A stretch of DNA of 34,685 nucleotides from Acidimicrobiia bacterium (lineage in GTDB: Bacteria > Actinomycetota > Acidimicrobiia > Spongiisociales > ZC4RG35): positions 1 through 34,685 of the forward strand of contig JAICRU010000027.1 of NCBI GenBank assembly GCA_025937235.1. The letters run 5' to 3'. Positions within the stretch are counted from its first letter, which is position 1. Each line of letters starts with the position of its first letter. Positions 24,589 through 32,803 of this stretch are shown one piece after another. The notes below the pieces were generated by a model, which saw only the letters and a list, made by a program, of their open reading frames with translations, was not told the origin of the DNA and ran no database searches. The position numbers were made by a program, and so were the translations under genes.

Positions 24589-24939
24589 TCAGACCGCGGA
24601 CAGCGCGGCGGCCTCGTCGTCGAAGATCTCGATCGCTTCGTCTAGACGCGTCAGCGAGAAGATCTGGCTGTAGTGGTCGGTCAATCCGTAGGCCATCAGG
24701 CGATGACCGCTTCGCTGGGCTCTGATCAAAGTGGTGACCAGTAACCCGATCCCACCGCTGTTCATGTACTCGAGCCCTTCGAAGTTGAGCACCACGGCGT
24801 CGACCCCGCCCTCCGCCGCCGCTTCGTGGGCGGTTGAGATCTCCTTCTCGGAGAAGGCGGTGATCTCTCCAGAGATGTCGATCACTCGCACCCGGGGGGC
24901 CACCTCCCGAACGTTCATGGTCGTGTTGGCTGTTGGCAT
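24589..24939 (-). CDS. STAS-domain anti-sigma factor antagonist
   Basis: A 116-residue RsbV/SpoIIAA-like protein. VRVIDISGEITAF is the first strand, and LEYMNSGGIGLLV carries the phosphorylatable Ser. GAGGAG precedes the ATG at 24939. The C-terminal half (GLTDHYSQIFSLTRLDEAIEIF) is closely similar to that of the next gene upstream, so both come from a tandem duplication. In the family the unphosphorylated form binds the anti-sigma kinase and frees the sigma factor. Confidence 0.9.
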   Translation of the reverse strand: MPTANTTMNVREVAPRVRVIDISGEITAFSEKEISTAHEAAAEGGVDAVVLNFEGLEYMNSGGIGLLVTTLIRAQRSGHRLMAYGLTDHYSQIFSLTRLDEAIEIFDDEAAALSAV

Positions 24940-24950
24940 GGGTCCTCTCC

Positions 24951-25292
24951 TCACCCGGCCGCGGCTGCAGCCGTCTCGTTGTCGTAGATGGTCATGAAAT
25001 CGGACAACCGGGTGATGGTGAACACCTCCCGGTAATGGTCGGTCAGGCCGAATGCGCCGACCGCGCGATGCTCGGCCCGGGCGATCGCCAGCACCCCGAC
25101 GATGACCGCTATCCCCGTCGAGTTGATGTAGTCGACGCCCCGGAAGTCCATCAGGATCTTCCCCGGCCCGGATGCGGCTTCCTCGTAGGCGCTTTCCAGG
25201 GCTTCCTTCGCCGCCCGGTTGACGGTCCCACTCATCACCACGACCGAACCGTCCTCGGTCCTCGACACCGTCGCCTCGAAAACGCTCTCCAT
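24951..25292 (-). CDS. STAS-domain anti-sigma factor antagonist
   Basis: A 113-residue paralogue of the neighbouring STAS protein, with VVVMSGTVNRAAKEAL, the phospho-site VDYINSTGIAV and GLTDHYREVFTITRLSDFMTIY. The ATG overlaps the TGA of the phosphatase gene by one base (TGATG), giving translational coupling, and GGAG stands seven bases upstream. It is a probable substrate of the SpoIIE and kinase domains encoded just before. Confidence 0.9.
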   Translation of the reverse strand: MESVFEATVSRTEDGSVVVMSGTVNRAAKEALESAYEEAASGPGKILMDFRGVDYINSTGIAVIVGVLAIARAEHRAVGAFGLTDHYREVFTITRLSDFMTIYDNETAAAAAG

Positions 25293-26923
25293 CAGAGGGC
25301 TCCTTCCCGGTTCATGACGAGCTCGACGGTGTGCGCCCCGCCATTGCTCGTCGACTTGACCTCGTCGACCATTTGCTCGATCAGGAACAGGCCCCAACCA
25401 CGCGGGGTCTGCTCACCGGCCAGCTTGGCTTCGATGTCGGGGACCGCCGCTTCGGGGATCAACTTGTCACCGCCTTGATCGGTGACGAGCACACTCACCG
25501 TGTCGTCGTTGGCGCAGACTTCGACCTCCACATCGAGCTCGGAGCGGAACTCGTTGCCGTGCTCGATTGCGTTCATCACCGTCTCCCCAACTGCGGTCTT
25601 GAGCCGCTCGAGACGGTCCGGCTGAAGCGCCAGTGAGCCGATGGCCGCGGTCACCTTGGCTATGGCGATCCGTTCGTTGCCTTCCTCGCTGGGAACACTG
25701 AACCTCGCCAGCACCTGCGGGCCTTCGGATTCCCCCCCATCCTGCAGCGGGACGCCCCCCTCCAGGGGGAGGAAGGTCGAGGCCGCACCCTGGGCAGAGG
25801 AGGTCCGTTTGACGACCACGAGCGTGATGTCGTCTTCCTGCTCTGCATCGGGCCCGGTGAACTTCTCCAGGTCGTTGACCACCTCGTTGAGCATGTCGTC
25901 CTCTGAGGTCTTCTTTCCGACCCGTCCCATGAGCCGGGCAAATCCGTACATCTCGCCCTCGGGGCTGTGGGCCTCGGTGATCCCGTCACTGGTCAGGACC
26001 ATGACCTCGCCGGCGCCCATCCCGTAACTCGTCTCCTCATAACTCATCCCCGGCATGAGCCCGAGCGGCATCCCTGTCGCCCTCAGCTCGATCACCCCGC
26101 CGTTGCTACGCACATACGGCAGGTTGTGCCCGGCGTTGGCGAAGACGATCTCGCCGGCCCCGGTGTCGATGATGGCGTAGAGGCACGTGACGAACATGGC
26201 CGGGGGGATCTCCGGAACCAGGGAATCGTTCACCTCGGCCAGAACCGCCGAAGGCGCGGAATGCCGCTGCGCCGCCGCCCGGAGCATCGACCGGCAGGTA
26301 GCCATCACGAGTGCCGCGGGCACACCCTTGTCCGTGACGTCGCCGATGACAACGCCGAGCCGCCCGTCTTCGAGGTCGATGAAGTCGTAGAAGTCGCCTC
26401 CGACGGCGCGTGCCGGTCGGTAGAACGCATCGACTTGCCATCCGGTGATGGCGGGCAACTCCTTTGGCAGCAGGGTCTGCTGGATCAGCGCGGCGACCTG
26501 GAGCTCCTGCTGGATGCGTTCCCGCTCCTTGGCCTCCGCCTGTTGCTCTCTGACCAGTTGGGCCACCTTCATGGCCGGCGCCACCTGAGAGGCAAGGCTC
26601 CCCAACAGACGCCGATCATCTGTCGAATAGGGCTGGTCGGAGAGACGGGGGCCGAGGTACAACGCGCCAAGGAGCTCGCCCTGGCCGATCAGCGGCACGA
26701 CCAGCTCCACACCGGACTGGCGTAAACCATCGAGGGCGGCCGACTCAAATTCGAGATCCCGCAGGACCACCGGGCCTCCGTTCGACAGGAGCAGTGCCTC
26801 GAGGGGATCCCCCATCGGGATCGGGATGGCGTCGATGAGCCTCGTCTTCGATTCCGACGCGGTCTCCTCCACCTGCGCCGACTCTGTCCCCTCAGCTCTG
26901 CGTCGTCTCATCAGCTGAACCAT
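25292..26923 (-). CDS. GAF - SpoIIE (PP2C) phosphatase - RsbW-like HATPase fusion protein
   Basis: A 543-residue signalling protein. Residues about 40-150 form a GAF-like sensor domain, a short coiled coil (EQQAEAKERERIQQELQ) follows, and a SpoIIE domain spans about 165-370 with metal Asp residues in GGDFYDF, GDVTDKG, TSDGITEA and EDDITLVVV. The C-terminal domain (about 400-543) is an ATP-binding anti-sigma kinase: N box GETVMNAIEHGN and GWGLFLIEQMVDEV. Thus phosphatase and kinase for the two STAS proteins sit on one chain. No sigma factor gene is present in the window, so the target is elsewhere. It lies immediately after the decayed membrane-protein copies. Confidence 0.9.
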   Translation of the reverse strand: MVQLMRRRRAEGTESAQVEETASESKTRLIDAIPIPMGDPLEALLLSNGGPVVLRDLEFESAALDGLRQSGVELVVPLIGQGELLGALYLGPRLSDQPYSTDDRRLLGSLASQVAPAMKVAQLVREQQAEAKERERIQQELQVAALIQQTLLPKELPAITGWQVDAFYRPARAVGGDFYDFIDLEDGRLGVVIGDVTDKGVPAALVMATCRSMLRAAAQRHSAPSAVLAEVNDSLVPEIPPAMFVTCLYAIIDTGAGEIVFANAGHNLPYVRSNGGVIELRATGMPLGLMPGMSYEETSYGMGAGEVMVLTSDGITEAHSPEGEMYGFARLMGRVGKKTSEDDMLNEVVNDLEKFTGPDAEQEDDITLVVVKRTSSAQGAASTFLPLEGGVPLQDGGESEGPQVLARFSVPSEEGNERIAIAKVTAAIGSLALQPDRLERLKTAVGETVMNAIEHGNEFRSELDVEVEVCANDDTVSVLVTDQGGDKLIPEAAVPDIEAKLAGEQTPRGWGLFLIEQMVDEVKSTSNGGAHTVELVMNREGAL

Positions 26924-26932
26924 GCCCTTTTT

Positions 26933-27404
26933 CTATCCCTCCAACGTCCCGAAATCGTTACGAATCCAAACCGAGACCGACGACGGCTGCATCGTCTCGG
27001 ACACGACACCCACCCAGCCCCCCACCAGCGTGTTTGGGTCGAGACCCTGGCGGAGCGAGCCGGAAAACCCATCCATCACCTGCTCGGCGTCATGGCGGGA
27101 ACGGTTGAATCTCCTCACCACCCCGGGTTGGACCCATCGCCGCAGCGGTGTGAAGAGGGCGGCGGCCAGCGTAGAAGCCGCGACGGTCAGAGAGTGCTCC
27201 GAGAAGAGGGACGACATTGACGCTGGGGCCGATCAGATAGACACCGGACAGGACTCCGAGGACAATCAGGTACGAGACCGTCCTGGACAGGATCCGGTCG
27301 CCGAACAGGACGCCCGCCATCTGGAGGACTACCCAGAAGACACCTAAAGTCAGCATCATCAGCGCCCAGAGGGCGAGCGCGATCCGGGCCACTGTGCTTC
27401 TCAT
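26933..27404 (-). pseudogene. Decayed membrane-sensor paralogue (internal deletion and frameshift)
   Basis: From an ATG at 27404 (MRSTVARIALALW) the frame gives one helix and then jumps directly to DRILSRTVSYLIVLGVLSGVY, which corresponds to the last third of the intact paralogues; some 250 residues are missing. Near 27220 the reading frame shifts: the continuation SLTVAASTLAAALFTPLRRW to NRSRHDAEQVMDGF is in another frame and ends at 26933. Both parts match the genes at 27623 and 28735. Confidence 0.75.
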
Positions 27405-27409
27405 CGGGC

Positions 27410-27499
27410 CTACCGCACCCACATACCGGCCGAAGTCTGTTGCATCGTCCTGGCGACGACGCCCAGCCAGCCTTCCACCACCCCGTCGGAGTCGACGGG
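27410..27499 (-). pseudogene. C-terminal scrap of another membrane-sensor paralogue
   Basis: VDSDGVVEGWLGVVARTMQ, then SAGMWVR and a stop, corresponds to the final 30 residues of the intact neighbours (GWVSVVNETMHPASAGVWVR). A stop codon 46 bases upstream (27545-27547) closes the frame. It stands five bases before the ATG of the other decayed copy, as expected for remains of a tandem array. Confidence 0.7.
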
Positions 27500-27622
27500 C
27501 GAAGGACATCCCGACGCCCAAGGCGATTCAGTCGAACCCAAGGATCATCACCAAAGGGAAGAAATCGGACGTTCGGTGGGTCGCACGGACTCGGCTACAA
27601 GGCCTGTGAACGGAAGCGCCTC

Positions 27623-28738
27623 TCATGGTTCGCGCACCCAGACTCCGGCGGCTGCGGGCTCCATAGCCTGCCTGACCGCAGAGACCCATCCGCTCATGAT
27701 CGCGTCCGGATCGACTTCATCGCGGATAGAGCCCGCGAAGCCGGCCATCACCCGCTCCGCGTCGTACTGAGATCGGTTGAAACGCCGGTCCACCCAGACC
27801 TGCACCCGTCTCCGCACAGGGTTGAACAGAGCCGCCACCGCCAGGGTGGATGCCGCGACTGCCAGATCGCTTTCCGTGTCGAGCAACGAGCTCGCCAGAG
27901 TCACGATGCCGGCGAACACCGCTGCCAGGAGACCGACCACGATCAGGTAGGTGAAGGTGCGGGAGATGAGTCGATCGATCTCGAAGAGCTGGTATCTGAC
28001 CACCGCGACACCGATCGAGATCGGGATCGCCGAGCCACCCAGCAACCAAAGATACTCGCCGGCCGAATCCTCTGGCAGGAACTGACCCAGAGCGATGATC
28101 AGCACGAAGACGGAGCCACCAAAGAGCAACCAGCGATACTGCAGACGCTCGATCCCCGAGCTGCGACGTAACCGACGGATGAGGCTCGTCAAGGCCAAGA
28201 CCGCCAAGAGCACCACGAACAAGAATCCCGAATCTTCGGTGATAAGCGTGAAGGCCGGCGAATCGGCGACCCCCAGCGGATTGGCCAGACCGGTGTCCTC
28301 GAGTGGCGCGGGACTGAACGCGAATCCGAGAGTGGCCCAGACGCCGATGACCCAGAGGCTGCGGCTCACCAGACGCTCGATGCGACCGCCGGGCTGTCCG
28401 GTGGGAAAGTTGGCGAGGAGCCAGACGATGATCAACCAGGGGACTACGCCGAGCACCGTATATCCGAGCTCGATCCAGGCGGCAGTCTGATCGGGGATGT
28501 CGAGGACGACGGATTGCATGGCGAAGGACAGCCCCCAGACCAGGCCGATGGCGAGACAGGCAATCCCTATCCGGTTGCCCGGCTTACGAAAGAGGATCAC
28601 ACCTCCGACCACCGGCCATGAGATCCAGGTGAGGGGCCAAAGCCTGTCACCAGTGTCGGCGAGTGGGCCGTGGAGCATCGCCATGACGGGGCCCACGACA
28701 GAGAGCAACACCAGGAAGGAGATCCAGATCCTTCTCAC
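27623..28738 (-). CDS. Polytopic membrane sensor-like protein (paralogue 2)
   Basis: A 371-residue protein with about eight to nine hydrophobic helices, then ALFNPVRRRVQVWVDRRFNRSQYDAE and a short cytoplasmic end GWVSAVRQAMEPAAAGVWVREP. In other bacteria the same membrane region with the RRFNR(S/A)xYDAxR motif precedes histidine-kinase or phosphatase output domains; here the chain simply stops. It may therefore signal through a separate protein. GTG 28738 was chosen because it overlaps the upstream stop (GTGA) and matches the N-terminus of the paralogues; a GTG at 28756 is possible. Confidence 0.75.
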   Translation of the reverse strand: MRRIWISFLVLLSVVGPVMAMLHGPLADTGDRLWPLTWISWPVVGGVILFRKPGNRIGIACLAIGLVWGLSFAMQSVVLDIPDQTAAWIELGYTVLGVVPWLIIVWLLANFPTGQPGGRIERLVSRSLWVIGVWATLGFAFSPAPLEDTGLANPLGVADSPAFTLITEDSGFLFVVLLAVLALTSLIRRLRRSSGIERLQYRWLLFGGSVFVLIIALGQFLPEDSAGEYLWLLGGSAIPISIGVAVVRYQLFEIDRLISRTFTYLIVVGLLAAVFAGIVTLASSLLDTESDLAVAASTLAVAALFNPVRRRVQVWVDRRFNRSQYDAERVMAGFAGSIRDEVDPDAIMSGWVSAVRQAMEPAAAGVWVREP

Positions 28739-29928
28739 TGACCGCCCCGCACCCACACCCCGGCCGATGCAGGATGCATGGTCTCGTTGACCACCGATAC
28801 CCAGCCCCCCACGACCTTTTCCGCATCGACCTCATCCCTGAGTGTGTCGGTGAACCCGGTCATGACCTGCTCCGCGTCATATCGGGTGCGATTGAACCGA
28901 TGGTCGACCACACCCTGGACTCGTCGCCGCAGTGGGTTGAAGAGCGCGGCCGCGGCCAAGGTGGAGACAGCCACAGCCAGCGGAGAGTCGGTGTCGAGGA
29001 GGGAGGTGAGCCCGGTCAGACCCACGGCGTAGACCAGGGCAAGCAGCGCGATCACGATCGCGTAGGACACGGTCCGGGAGATGATCCGGTCGATCTCGTA
29101 AAGCCGGTATCGCAGGATCGCAAGCGTCGCCGCGATCGGTATGGCGATGATCGATAGGTCGATCCATAGGTCCACGATGTATGGCGGCTCGGCGAGTCCC
29201 ATGCTCTCCAAGGCGATCTCGGCACCCAGGGCGGCAACGAAGGAAGCGCATGCGAGGAGGAACCACTTCAGCTGGAGCCGTTCCACGGTCTCCGCCTTCC
29301 GGTAACGCATGAACAACGACAAGACGGCTCCACCCATGAAAACGGGATACAGGGCGAACAGCGGGCCGGACAGCCAGCCGAACTCCGGGTTAGGCATCCC
29401 CCGAATGCCGATTGGGTTGCTGACCCACTGCAGACACTCCCCGTCGGAGAAATCGGCGCAGAGCTGATCGGTGAAGGAGTAACTGATGAAGGTGAGCGCC
29501 ACCAGAGCCAAACCGAGCCACTGCAGCCATAGCCATCGTCGCGACGGAACCTCACCCGTCGGGAACCAAAGAACCAGGGTGCCCACACCGATGATCCATC
29601 CCAGCCACAAGCCTCCTCCGATGGCGGAGAACGCCAGATATCCCCGGTCGGCCAGACCGCCGGCTATCGCCGAACCGGCAATGAACAGCCCGATCCCGGA
29701 GAAGACCCAGCCGACACGGTTCCCGTTTGCTTTCCATAGGACGAGGGGGCCGAGGACGAGAAAAAGGGTCATCGTCATCAGGTTTCCCCAGGTCTCGGTA
29801 TCGAAGGGCAAGGGATCCAGCCATCCAACCATCCCACCGCCGATCCGAACCGAGAGCAGGAACACACCGATGAGCGCTACCACCCATGCGCTCCCGGCCC
29901 CGACGCGGGCTGCCTCTCCATCCCTCAT
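28735..29928 (-). CDS. Polytopic membrane sensor-like protein (paralogue 1)
   Basis: A 397-residue protein of the same family: about nine transmembrane helices, the RYRLYEIDRIISRTVSYAIV segment, NPLRRRVQGVVDHRFNRTRYDAE, and the terminal NETMHPASAGVWVRGGQ. No kinase, cyclase or DNA-binding domain follows. Start is ATG 29928 (or GTG 29937), with no ribosome binding site. It is the first gene of a series running through the decayed copies to the SpoIIE fusion and STAS genes, and is divergent from the BTAD regulator gene. Confidence 0.75.
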   Translation of the reverse strand: MRDGEAARVGAGSAWVVALIGVFLLSVRIGGGMVGWLDPLPFDTETWGNLMTMTLFLVLGPLVLWKANGNRVGWVFSGIGLFIAGSAIAGGLADRGYLAFSAIGGGLWLGWIIGVGTLVLWFPTGEVPSRRWLWLQWLGLALVALTFISYSFTDQLCADFSDGECLQWVSNPIGIRGMPNPEFGWLSGPLFALYPVFMGGAVLSLFMRYRKAETVERLQLKWFLLACASFVAALGAEIALESMGLAEPPYIVDLWIDLSIIAIPIAATLAILRYRLYEIDRIISRTVSYAIVIALLALVYAVGLTGLTSLLDTDSPLAVAVSTLAAAALFNPLRRRVQGVVDHRFNRTRYDAEQVMTGFTDTLRDEVDAEKVVGGWVSVVNETMHPASAGVWVRGGQ

Positions 29929-30067: not shown

Positions 30068-32803
30068 TTGCTCGAAATCAATCTCTTGGGACGTCCCGAG
30101 GTGCTCCTCGACGGAAAGCCGGTCGTGGTCGATACCCGCAAGGCCATCGCCCTGCTCGCCTTTCTGACGGTTGAGAGGTCGGGATCGAGGGATTCGCTGG
30201 CGGCCCTGTTCTGGGCCGACGCATCACAGGAACGGGCCCGGGCAACCCTGAGACGCACCCTCTCCGCCCTTCGGGGAGCCACCCGGTCCGATCTGATCGG
30301 GGCGGACCGCAACCTGGTCACGCTGATCGGGCCGACGCGGTCGGACCTCGAGATCCTGGAAGCCGAGATCGCCGCCACCCGGGACCACGGTCATGACCCG
30401 CGCGATGTCTGCGACCGCTGCATCCCGCATCTGCGCAAAGCCGCCGACCTCTACCGGGGTGACTTCCTCGAGGGCTTCTCGTTGAAAACGTCCCCCGAGT
30501 TCGAGGACTGGGTCCGGAACATGTCCGAAACGGTGCGGATCCGGATTGGGGAGACCTACCACCGGCTGGGCACGGCCCTGGCCGCCGCTGGTGATTATCC
30601 GGGTGCGATCACGGCGGTGACCCGGTGGCTGGAGCTGGACCCCCTCCACGAACCGGCCCATCGCTTCCTCATGCTGCTCCATGCCTGGTCGGGTGACCGG
30701 CCCGGTGCGATAGAGGCCTATCGCGCATGTGTCACGGTTCTCGAGCAGGAGCTGGGGGTGGCACCGCTCGAAGAGACCACCGAGCTGTACGAGGCCATAC
30801 TCGACGAGGACCTGCCGCCGGCGCCGGGGGCTCCACGCCGGGTCAAGGCGGAAACACCTATCAGGACGGTCCAGCAGCCCGACCTCATCGACCGAGAGGA
30901 TGAGCTTGGCCTCCTGAGCCGGACGTTGCGCCGAGCCACTGCCGGGCAGGGATGTGTGCTGTCGATGATCGGGGCGCCGTGGATGGGGAAGACCCGCCTC
31001 CTCGAAGAATTCGCATCGAATTCCGGTCGTGAGTCCGGCATCCTGATCGGCCGGGCCTTCCGAATGGAACAAGACCTGCCTTATGGCGTGGCCATCCAGG
31101 TCCTGGCCGGGGCAGCGCCGTTGATCGATGGGAGCCGGGATGAGATCCCGGATTGGGCAGTCCACGAAGTGGGGAGGCTCGTGCCCGGGCTCCAGTCCGG
31201 TGAAGCCACGACGACGCCCGATCGATTCGGTGAGCTCAGGCTGTTGGAGGGGATCCTCACCGCTCTGTCGACTCTCGCCGCGAGGCGTCCACTGGTCGTG
31301 ATCCTCGACGACGTCCAATGGATGGACCAGGCATCGGCCTCCCTGTTCTCGTACCTCGCCCGGCGCATCGGGGACCTCCCCGTCCTGATGGTGCTCGCCG
31401 CCAGGAGCGAGGATGATCTCCTTCCGGGTGTTGCTGAGATGATGTCCGGAGCCGCCGAGAGAGTCGAGGTCCAGCCCCTGGCCCTGGAGCACCTGATCCC
31501 ACTGACCGATGGCGACGACAACGAAGCCGCACGGTTGCTCGAACAGACCGGAGGGGTTCCTCTGCTGATCAACGAGGCCCTTTCTCCGGACGCGGATCCA
31601 GCGACTCCTGGAATGGCCCGCTACATGGAGGCGCGACTACTCGAGGTCGGCGACCTCGCCCGTCAGATCCTCACCGCGGCCGCGGCCCTGAATGGCACCT
31701 GTGATGCCACCCTCCTGCGTGAGACGAGCGGTCGAAATGAGGAGGAGGTGGTCGAAGCCGTCGAAGAACTCATGGCCGCCCGCCTCTTGCGGGAGATACC
31801 GGAGTCCGATGGCCTCGCATTCACTCTCGACGCCCTAGAGCGAGTCGCTTACGAAGCGACGTCGATGGTGCGTCGGCGGCTCCTCCACCGCAGGGCGGCC
31901 CGCGCCTTGTCGGAGCGGGGGCACGCCCGTTCGGATGCCCGGCTGGCCGCTGCCGTCGCCGGTCATTATCAGGCGGCCGGCGACGACAAGGCTGCGGAGT
32001 GGTACCACCTGGCCGGGGACCTTTCTCGGAGCGTGTATGCCAACGAATCGGCCCGGAAGTTCTACGAGATCGCCCTGGCCGTCGGTGATCCAGACGTCAC
32101 CGGTGCCCGATTGGCCCTCGCCGAGATCGCCATGGCCGCCGGGGAGTACGAACGAGCCAGACGTGAGCTAACTCTGGCGTCGGCACATGCCGAACCGGGT
32201 TCAGCAGGGGTCATCGAGCATCGGACCGGCGAGGTAGAACGCCTGCTCGGGCGCTTCGACGACGCCGAGGCGCACTTCGAGCAAGCCATCCTCAGCCACC
32301 CGGCGCCGGCCGAGGTGCTCGCCGACTGGGCATTGCTGGCGCATCGGGTTGGGGACGCGGCCAAGGCCGCCGAGCTGGCGGAGCGGGCCCGATCGGCCGC
32401 CGAGGACGACGACAGCCCGGCTCACCGATCCAGGGTGCGCAACATCCTCGCCGTCGTCAGCAGCGACAGCAAGGAGGCGTTGGTGCATGCCGATGAGGCC
32501 CTCAGACTCGCGGGAACCGACGATCTGCTCCGGATGGCGGCACTCAACAACAAGGCGATTCTCCTGTCAGAGGACGGCGACAGCCTGACGGCTGTCCGGC
32601 TCGTGGAGGAGGCGATTTCGATCGCCGACCGTACCGGACATCGTCATCGGGAGGCGGCGCTCTGGAACCATCTCGCCGACCTCCATCACCGCGCCGGCCG
32701 TGAAGCCGAGGCGCGGGACGCCCTGAACAAGGCGGTGTCATTGTTCGCCGACATCGACTCGGGCGAGTTCGAGCCCGAGCTCTGGCTCCTCTCCCGCTGG
32801 TGA
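30068..32803 (+). CDS. BTAD/AAA/TPR transcriptional regulator (SARP/AfsR-like)
   Basis: A 911-residue regulator from a TTG start, supported by GGTGAGGTGA eight bases upstream. Residues 1-95 form the OmpR-like winged helix of SARP proteins (EINLLGRPEVLLDGKPV, RKAIALLAFL, ERARATLRRTLSALR). The bacterial transcriptional activation domain spans about 95-250 (YRGDFLEGF, ELDPLHEPAHRFLM). An STAND/AAA module has Walker A GAPWMGKTR near 303 and Walker B LVVILDDVQWMD near 410. The C-terminal 300 residues are TPR-like helical repeats. There is no C-terminal LuxR helix-turn-helix. Such proteins use ATP to activate transcription; the divergent membrane-sensor genes are the nearest candidate targets. Confidence 0.9.
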   Translation: MLEINLLGRPEVLLDGKPVVVDTRKAIALLAFLTVERSGSRDSLAALFWADASQERARATLRRTLSALRGATRSDLIGADRNLVTLIGPTRSDLEILEAEIAATRDHGHDPRDVCDRCIPHLRKAADLYRGDFLEGFSLKTSPEFEDWVRNMSETVRIRIGETYHRLGTALAAAGDYPGAITAVTRWLELDPLHEPAHRFLMLLHAWSGDRPGAIEAYRACVTVLEQELGVAPLEETTELYEAILDEDLPPAPGAPRRVKAETPIRTVQQPDLIDREDELGLLSRTLRRATAGQGCVLSMIGAPWMGKTRLLEEFASNSGRESGILIGRAFRMEQDLPYGVAIQVLAGAAPLIDGSRDEIPDWAVHEVGRLVPGLQSGEATTTPDRFGELRLLEGILTALSTLAARRPLVVILDDVQWMDQASASLFSYLARRIGDLPVLMVLAARSEDDLLPGVAEMMSGAAERVEVQPLALEHLIPLTDGDDNEAARLLEQTGGVPLLINEALSPDADPATPGMARYMEARLLEVGDLARQILTAAAALNGTCDATLLRETSGRNEEEVVEAVEELMAARLLREIPESDGLAFTLDALERVAYEATSMVRRRLLHRRAARALSERGHARSDARLAAAVAGHYQAAGDDKAAEWYHLAGDLSRSVYANESARKFYEIALAVGDPDVTGARLALAEIAMAAGEYERARRELTLASAHAEPGSAGVIEHRTGEVERLLGRFDDAEAHFEQAILSHPAPAEVLADWALLAHRVGDAAKAAELAERARSAAEDDDSPAHRSRVRNILAVVSSDSKEALVHADEALRLAGTDDLLRMAALNNKAILLSEDGDSLTAVRLVEEAISIADRTGHRHREAALWNHLADLHHRAGREAEARDALNKAVSLFADIDSGEFEPELWLLSRW

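Follow-up and report, generated by a model that had tools for sequence, protein, structure and literature searches.

The 34,685-nucleotide stretch analysed here (the window) is one whole contig, JAICRU010000027.1, of the 3.08-Mb assembly GCA_025937235.1 of an Acidimicrobiia bacterium, whose nearest relatives with records are metagenome-assembled genomes (MAGs) likewise named Acidimicrobiia. Its minus strand carries an array of seven-transmembrane (7TM) sensor genes, denoted A to D in their order on that strand, which leads into genes for a SpoIIE-family phosphatase and two STAS proteins. The sensor chains end in a segment homologous to the first part of a GAF domain, and the phosphatase chain begins with a segment homologous to the rest. 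From this comparison we consider it moderately probable that the array forms the receptor side of a partner-switching system with many sensors to one phosphatase, whose split GAF domain the membrane sensors would complete.

The sensor array and its GAF-like ends

Sensor A (28735–29928, minus strand; 397 residues from an ATG) is intact and consists of a 7TM region, a linker helix with the motif RFNRTRYDAE and a C-terminal half-GAF tail. The tail (residues 369–397; 28738–28824, minus strand) comprises GAF helix 1 (369–384) and a strand-1 segment, and ends in PASAGVWVRGGQ. Sensor B (27623–28756, minus strand; 377 residues) is also intact; its GTG start lies inside the end of A (overlap 22 nt), and it passes the Pfam cut-off for HisKA_7TM (PF16927, 33.7 bits, cut-off 28.6). 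There is no Pfam match for A. Copy C (27410–27493, minus strand) is a remnant of only about 27 C-terminal codons, corresponding to the half-GAF tail, that ends in DSDGVVEGWLGVVARTMQQTSAGMWVR followed by the stop codon (27410–27412); upstream its frame is open for a short stretch only. Copy D (26933–27404, minus strand; ATG at 27404, stop at 26933–26935) has decayed, with a C-terminal frame of 94 residues still open. Compared with the intact orthologue of the congener G001, D has lost about 0.67 kb, i.e. most of the membrane region, and in addition 3 nt, and it is frameshifted by a 1-nt insertion; what is left is nearly identical. The first-pass annotation of this DNA, made from the letters alone, had described two intact and two decaying tandem copies, with a large deletion and a frameshift in the fragment at 26933–27404, and all of this holds. 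Its fragment at 27410–27499 is indeed the C-terminal remnant of a relative, slightly shorter than the 30 residues it was given.

The linker motif that had been noticed in A and B, RFNR(S/T)xYDAE, reads RFNRTRYDAE in A, RFNRSQYDAE in B and RFNRSRHDAE in D. Sequence identity is 42% between A and B over the region matched and 59% between A residues 308–395 and the D remnant (E = 1.4e-24), similarities that reflect kinship, not chance. Pfam found no output domain in A, B or D, including HisKA and HATPase, in line with the annotation. All copies point in the direction of the SpoIIE, STAS and STAS genes, as annotated, and D adjoins SpoIIE. At the junction of the two genes (26920–26935) the end of D overlaps the likely ribosome-binding site of SpoIIE, GGAGGG. 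Read-through from D into SpoIIE was considered and rejected: the two share a frame in the window, with three codons between the D stop and the SpoIIE ATG, but their frames differ in G001, G002 and G009.

The phosphatase (25292–26923, minus strand) has a disordered N-terminus, a GAF domain without its first part, a coiled-coil helix, a PPM phosphatase domain (SpoIIE, PF07228, 174.6 bits in Pfam) and an RsbW-like ATPase domain (HATPase_c_2, PF13581, 65.2 bits). The sequences GGDFYDF, GDVTDKGVPAALVM, SDG and EQEDD, which we take to be the phosphatase metal-site motifs, are retained in all eight aligned SpoIIE sequences; NAIEHGN, presumably the N-box of an RsbW-type kinase domain, is present in the seven that reach that region. 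STAS protein 1, of the anti-sigma-factor antagonist type (24951–25292, minus strand), contains NSTG and STAS protein 2 (24589–24954, minus strand) NSGG, each presumably the site at which such proteins are phosphorylated. A partner-switching set of phosphatase, ATPase kinase and STAS antagonist is present together.

The half-GAF of the phosphatase (residues 40–151; 26471–26806, minus strand) lacks helix 1 and strand 1. Of the Pfam GAF models, the two above their cut-off match only from profile position 47 or 60 (45–60 over all hits), and alignments to solved GAF domains also begin late, e.g. at residue 100 of the 153-residue DevS GAF. The structural model shows disorder to about residue 30, a helix at 40–48, strands at 74–80 and 83–90 plus a short bridge, and a helix at 101–151 that leads to the phosphatase domain. 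By Pfam and by the model, the SpoIIE protein of the window does not form a complete GAF fold (helix 1, strand 1, strand 2) by itself. In 32 of the 43 orthologues in which the motif VPL..GELIG was found, at most 110 in-frame residues precede it. At some loci (L122–L126, L128, L130 and L133) the half-GAF phosphatase is shorter, about 394–414 residues, with HATPase on a separate overlapping open reading frame (ORF; checked by Pfam at L123 and L125 only).

The last 28 or so sensor residues match the GAF start (helix 1 and strand 1) of longer 7TM-GAF relatives. An alignment of 20 standalone sensors shows an invariant Pro and Trp among the last conserved residues, with the chain ending shortly after. 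Over all collected loci, chain ends were counted for ORFs with a stop codon whose matches covered at least 80 columns and reached model position 138; of 123 distinct C-termini, 105 lie no more than 43 residues past the strand-1 Trp and 18 at least 293 residues past it (these include the decayed L141/L112), with none in between. Profile comparison by hhalign after filtering aligned 99 standalone tails to 17 fused 7TM-GAF relatives (97.9%, E 2e-12). To the same fused set it also aligned 27 half-GAF SpoIIE proteins by their N-terminal regions (99.1%, E 8e-18). The second match nominally spans the template, its confident part being the second half of GAF and the coiled coil. Sensor tails compared directly with SpoIIE N-termini gave no hhalign match (0.4%). 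By homology to the fused relatives, tail and SpoIIE N-terminus together cover one GAF domain, with strand 2 not clearly assigned. When sensor A is modelled as a lone chain its end is the helix 369–384, after which most residues fall below pLDDT 50. A strand that has no sheet to join would look like this, though disorder at a chain end is no proof by itself. Among the sensor regions the linker is the best conserved (mean identity 0.53–0.62, vs 0.33–0.37 in the TM region).

Longer relatives place the 7TM region and a GAF domain ahead of SpoIIE, a histidine kinase or a cyclase in one chain. One of them is L152 (899 residues), which runs 7TM, sensor linker, complete GAF, SpoIIE; its Pfam GAF match covers all of the model (1–133 of 133) at residues 472–617 and starts within the sensor-tail match, which ends at 498. 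In L159 and L160 the domains follow the same order, with GAF scored more weakly by Pfam or not at all. The standalone sensors correspond to the fused string cut after strand 1. These natural 7TM-GAF-SpoIIE fusions are domain-fusion evidence that the sensor and SpoIIE proteins of the window act together. L141 (993 residues) was rejected as a further fusion, its sensor part being decayed with no clean reading through the GAF start. In the genome of the window itself, a chain on contig C82 (L062:4155-6209) joins 7TM, GAF and an adenylate/guanylate cyclase domain, and L067 holds a similar one.

Linkage, co-occurrence and copy number

The linkage of sensors to SpoIIE is strong. At 33 of 44 standalone half-GAF SpoIIE loci a same-strand sensor is found in the stretch examined, with up to six in tandem, and at 24 a sensor lies directly upstream, within 250 nt. 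Among the 11 loci outside the 33, three have tail fragments only (G017, G488, G507), one a decayed in-frame sensor (G649) and one a sensor on the opposite strand (G580); G390 has none in the stretch examined, but in its fuller record, L088, sensors lie on the same strand about 3.9 kb downstream. The SpoIIE-adjacent counterparts of D are intact in G001 and G002, and these two sensors pair in the tree. The annotation had named copy number in related genomes as the comparison to make and a single copy unlinked to SpoIIE as the outcome that would speak against functional linkage. In the relatives copy number varies and often exceeds one, and linkage to orthologous SpoIIE/HATPase-STAS-STAS genes is widespread, though not universal.

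The two proteins also occur together. Among 396 genomes of the phylum, scored on their best 7 (one scan) or best 10 (other scan) candidates at cut-offs that we chose, a strong sensor (E <= 1e-43) is present in 33 of 33 SpoIIE-positive and 6 of 363 SpoIIE-negative genomes. Full rescoring of ten genomes brought one extra, partial SpoIIE (G650, 7.6e-50), in one of the six exceptions, which leaves five. The system is patchy, since within the class sample a match occurs in only 8 of 296 genomes, two of them (G128, G190) counting or including fused chains. Apart from fused relatives and truncated or diverged SpoIIE-like ORFs, a half-GAF profile search of the ORFs of the collected loci turned up no further output protein with a half-GAF.

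Sensors outnumber phosphatases. With one SpoIIE each, G506 (one contig), G478 (two contigs) and G374 (six contigs) have five, five and nine standalone-type sensors at E <= 1e-41, and several further genomes have at least 10 scored candidates. The genome of the window holds standalone relatives on contigs C1, C19, C30, C38 and C107. No output-domain genes were found among the scanned neighbours of these orphan sensors, which include tRNA-ligase, transporter and enzyme genes. The sensor on C107 (L063) has an internal stop and adjoins a BioY-type gene and a gene for a branched-chain amino acid ABC transporter; another orphan (L061) lies among solute-binding-protein genes. In a tree of 34 of the 74 sensors from mapped loci, in which many forks are weak, A and B each pair with a copy from G009 (support 98/97 and 99/95, respectively), and lineage-specific expansions occur in G020 (seven) and G374 (five). 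Orthologous copies, lineage expansions and the loss of C and D in the window fit birth and death of sensor genes.

Beyond the array, on the plus strand, lies a gene for a BTAD/AAA/TPR (AfsR-like) regulator (30068–32803), which is divergent in 22/22 loci where seen.

A proposed mechanism and its alternatives

The anatomy of the two chains suggests how they may work. Each sensor consists of the 7TM part, a long cytosolic helix, GAF helix 1 and strand 1, and then a stop, and the SpoIIE/HATPase protein begins with the remaining GAF. The sensor tail would dock into the incomplete GAF domain of the phosphatase, which would thereby be completed at the membrane. Changes in the 7TM part would then shift the linker helix and alter the coiled coil that is predicted to dimerise and switch the phosphatase, which would dephosphorylate both STAS proteins and so oppose the HATPase domain, which would act as the kinase. 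All sensors, whether duplicated or scattered, would plug into the one phosphatase, a sharing that would leave sensor copies free to be gained or lost (here A and B survive, whereas C and D have decayed). The earlier suggestion that the sensors may need a partner is supported by this anatomy and becomes more specific, with the SpoIIE protein as the candidate. More generally, and tentatively, the family may possibly form a split-domain receptor hub, in which up to ten or more receptors per genome, all ending in GAF helix 1 and strand 1, activate one cytosolic phosphatase by GAF strand complementation in trans and can be duplicated, lost or scattered without rewiring the output.

Several observations weigh against sensors completing the GAF of a single phosphatase. 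The SpoIIE-adjacent sensor of the window, D, is the broken copy. Five of the 44 SpoIIE loci (G016, G501, G339, G190 and F089) have no sensor in the stretch examined. Conversely, standalone sensors occur in eight genomes with no half-GAF SpoIIE match or none better than 1.6e-23, including G315 (98% complete), G515 (96%) and G526 (100%), as well as G449, G462 and the own-family G019, G008 and G006; in G462 two tandem sensors adjoin a BTAD gene, and the following 0.8 kb contain no SpoIIE. The tails within a genome are not more alike than TM similarity predicts, 279 of 2000 permutations reaching the observed value (74 sensors, mapped loci), and there is thus no sign of tail adaptation to a shared partner. 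On the supporting side, over 32 loci with a pair, out of 40 given, half-GAF distances follow sensor-tail distances (r 0.55) better than does the phosphatase domain of the same chain (0.27); they also track the TM region (r 0.48), so that the tail signal is not specific and the distance result is only suggestive.

The sensors could instead act on the phosphatase in another way, by membrane recruitment or by lateral coiled-coil contact like the linker binding of RsbT, with the half-GAF tail left over from gene fission and no longer forming a GAF with the phosphatase piece. Activation of RsbU by RsbT works through the linker, which RsbT orders into a coiled coil; no split domain is described for it in the parts consulted (PMC12143880). 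The disordered final residues of the lone sensor model and the lack of a clear home for strand 2 in either chain point the same way. A relic would probably drift, yet the Pro and Trp are invariant in the 20 aligned sensors and 105 of 123 chains end near the same place, and we regard this explanation as unlikely. That the sensors serve some other partner (other GAF proteins, dimers with each other, or transporters), their proximity to SpoIIE reflecting co-expression only, would suit the eight genomes just mentioned and the orphan sensors dispersed beside transporter and enzyme genes. It sits poorly with the co-occurrence (33/33 vs 6/363), the sensor-SpoIIE fusions in one chain and the outcome of the half-GAF profile search, and appears improbable. 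Finally, two broken copies out of four and the internal stop on contig C107 might mark the array as decaying baggage, duplicated membrane proteins without function. We give this very little credence, given that A and B are intact and each paired with a G009 copy, that the linker is the best conserved part and that family and linkage are retained across the phylum sample.

Relation to known systems

7TM sensors, PPM phosphatases, RsbW ATPases and STAS proteins are all known kinds. Kinship of the 7TM part with G protein-coupled receptors (GPCRs) was rejected, the Foldseek matches having E >= 0.036 and low TM-scores, with none reaching 0.001; profile matches to acetylcholine receptor chains (best E 0.00085) were set aside as apparent matches between membrane helices. 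In a sensor of a Thermomicrobiales MAG (L090:1268-2971) the membrane part is preceded by an additional N-terminal segment, cupredoxin-like by eye, for which Pfam gave only a weak DUF998 match.

The best structural and sequence match of the SpoIIE protein is Rv1364c of Mycobacterium tuberculosis (E 1.5e-19 by fold, 2.4e-24 by profile), a PAS-RsbU-RsbW-RsbV chain whose RsbU and RsbW domains (3ke6) are the closest solved relative. Both join an RsbU-type phosphatase to an RsbW-type ATPase and have STAS partners. Rv1364c is described as carrying its PAS sensor and anti-anti-sigma domain in the same chain (PMC12143880), whereas the window has a separate membrane protein as sensor and a divided GAF. 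In the RsbU/RsbT and RsbP/RsbQ systems of Bacillus subtilis, as in the proposed complementation, a PPM phosphatase is controlled by a separate protein, there through an N-terminal region and a helical linker (PMC12143880). The same text does not describe RsbT or RsbQ as membrane sensors or a domain divided with the phosphatase, and it extends the proposal of coiled-coil linker switching to GAF-, PAS- and HAMP-linked phosphatases. The ordering of the RsbU linker by RsbT described there is a precedent for the coiled-coil step of the mechanism. The HisKA_7TM histidine kinases resemble the sensors in that B passes the Pfam cut-off and long relatives combine 7TM, GAF and kinase; unlike them, the sensors of the window stop after the first part of GAF, without a kinase, and A matches no Pfam family. 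Clostridioides difficile RsbZ has tandem GAF domains and a PPM phosphatase in one chain, unlike the two chains here. The titles and abstract openings of the open-licence PMC literature searched describe no GAF domain split between a membrane sensor and a phosphatase.

For many partner-switching systems the route from a membrane signal to an RsbU/SpoIIE-type phosphatase is an open question, to which this locus offers a testable answer, with the one-chain fusions as natural built-in controls. If true, complementation of a split GAF would explain why these bacteria, most of them uncultured, have families of 'sensors without output', and would provide a natural case of interchangeable receptors plugging into one enzyme.

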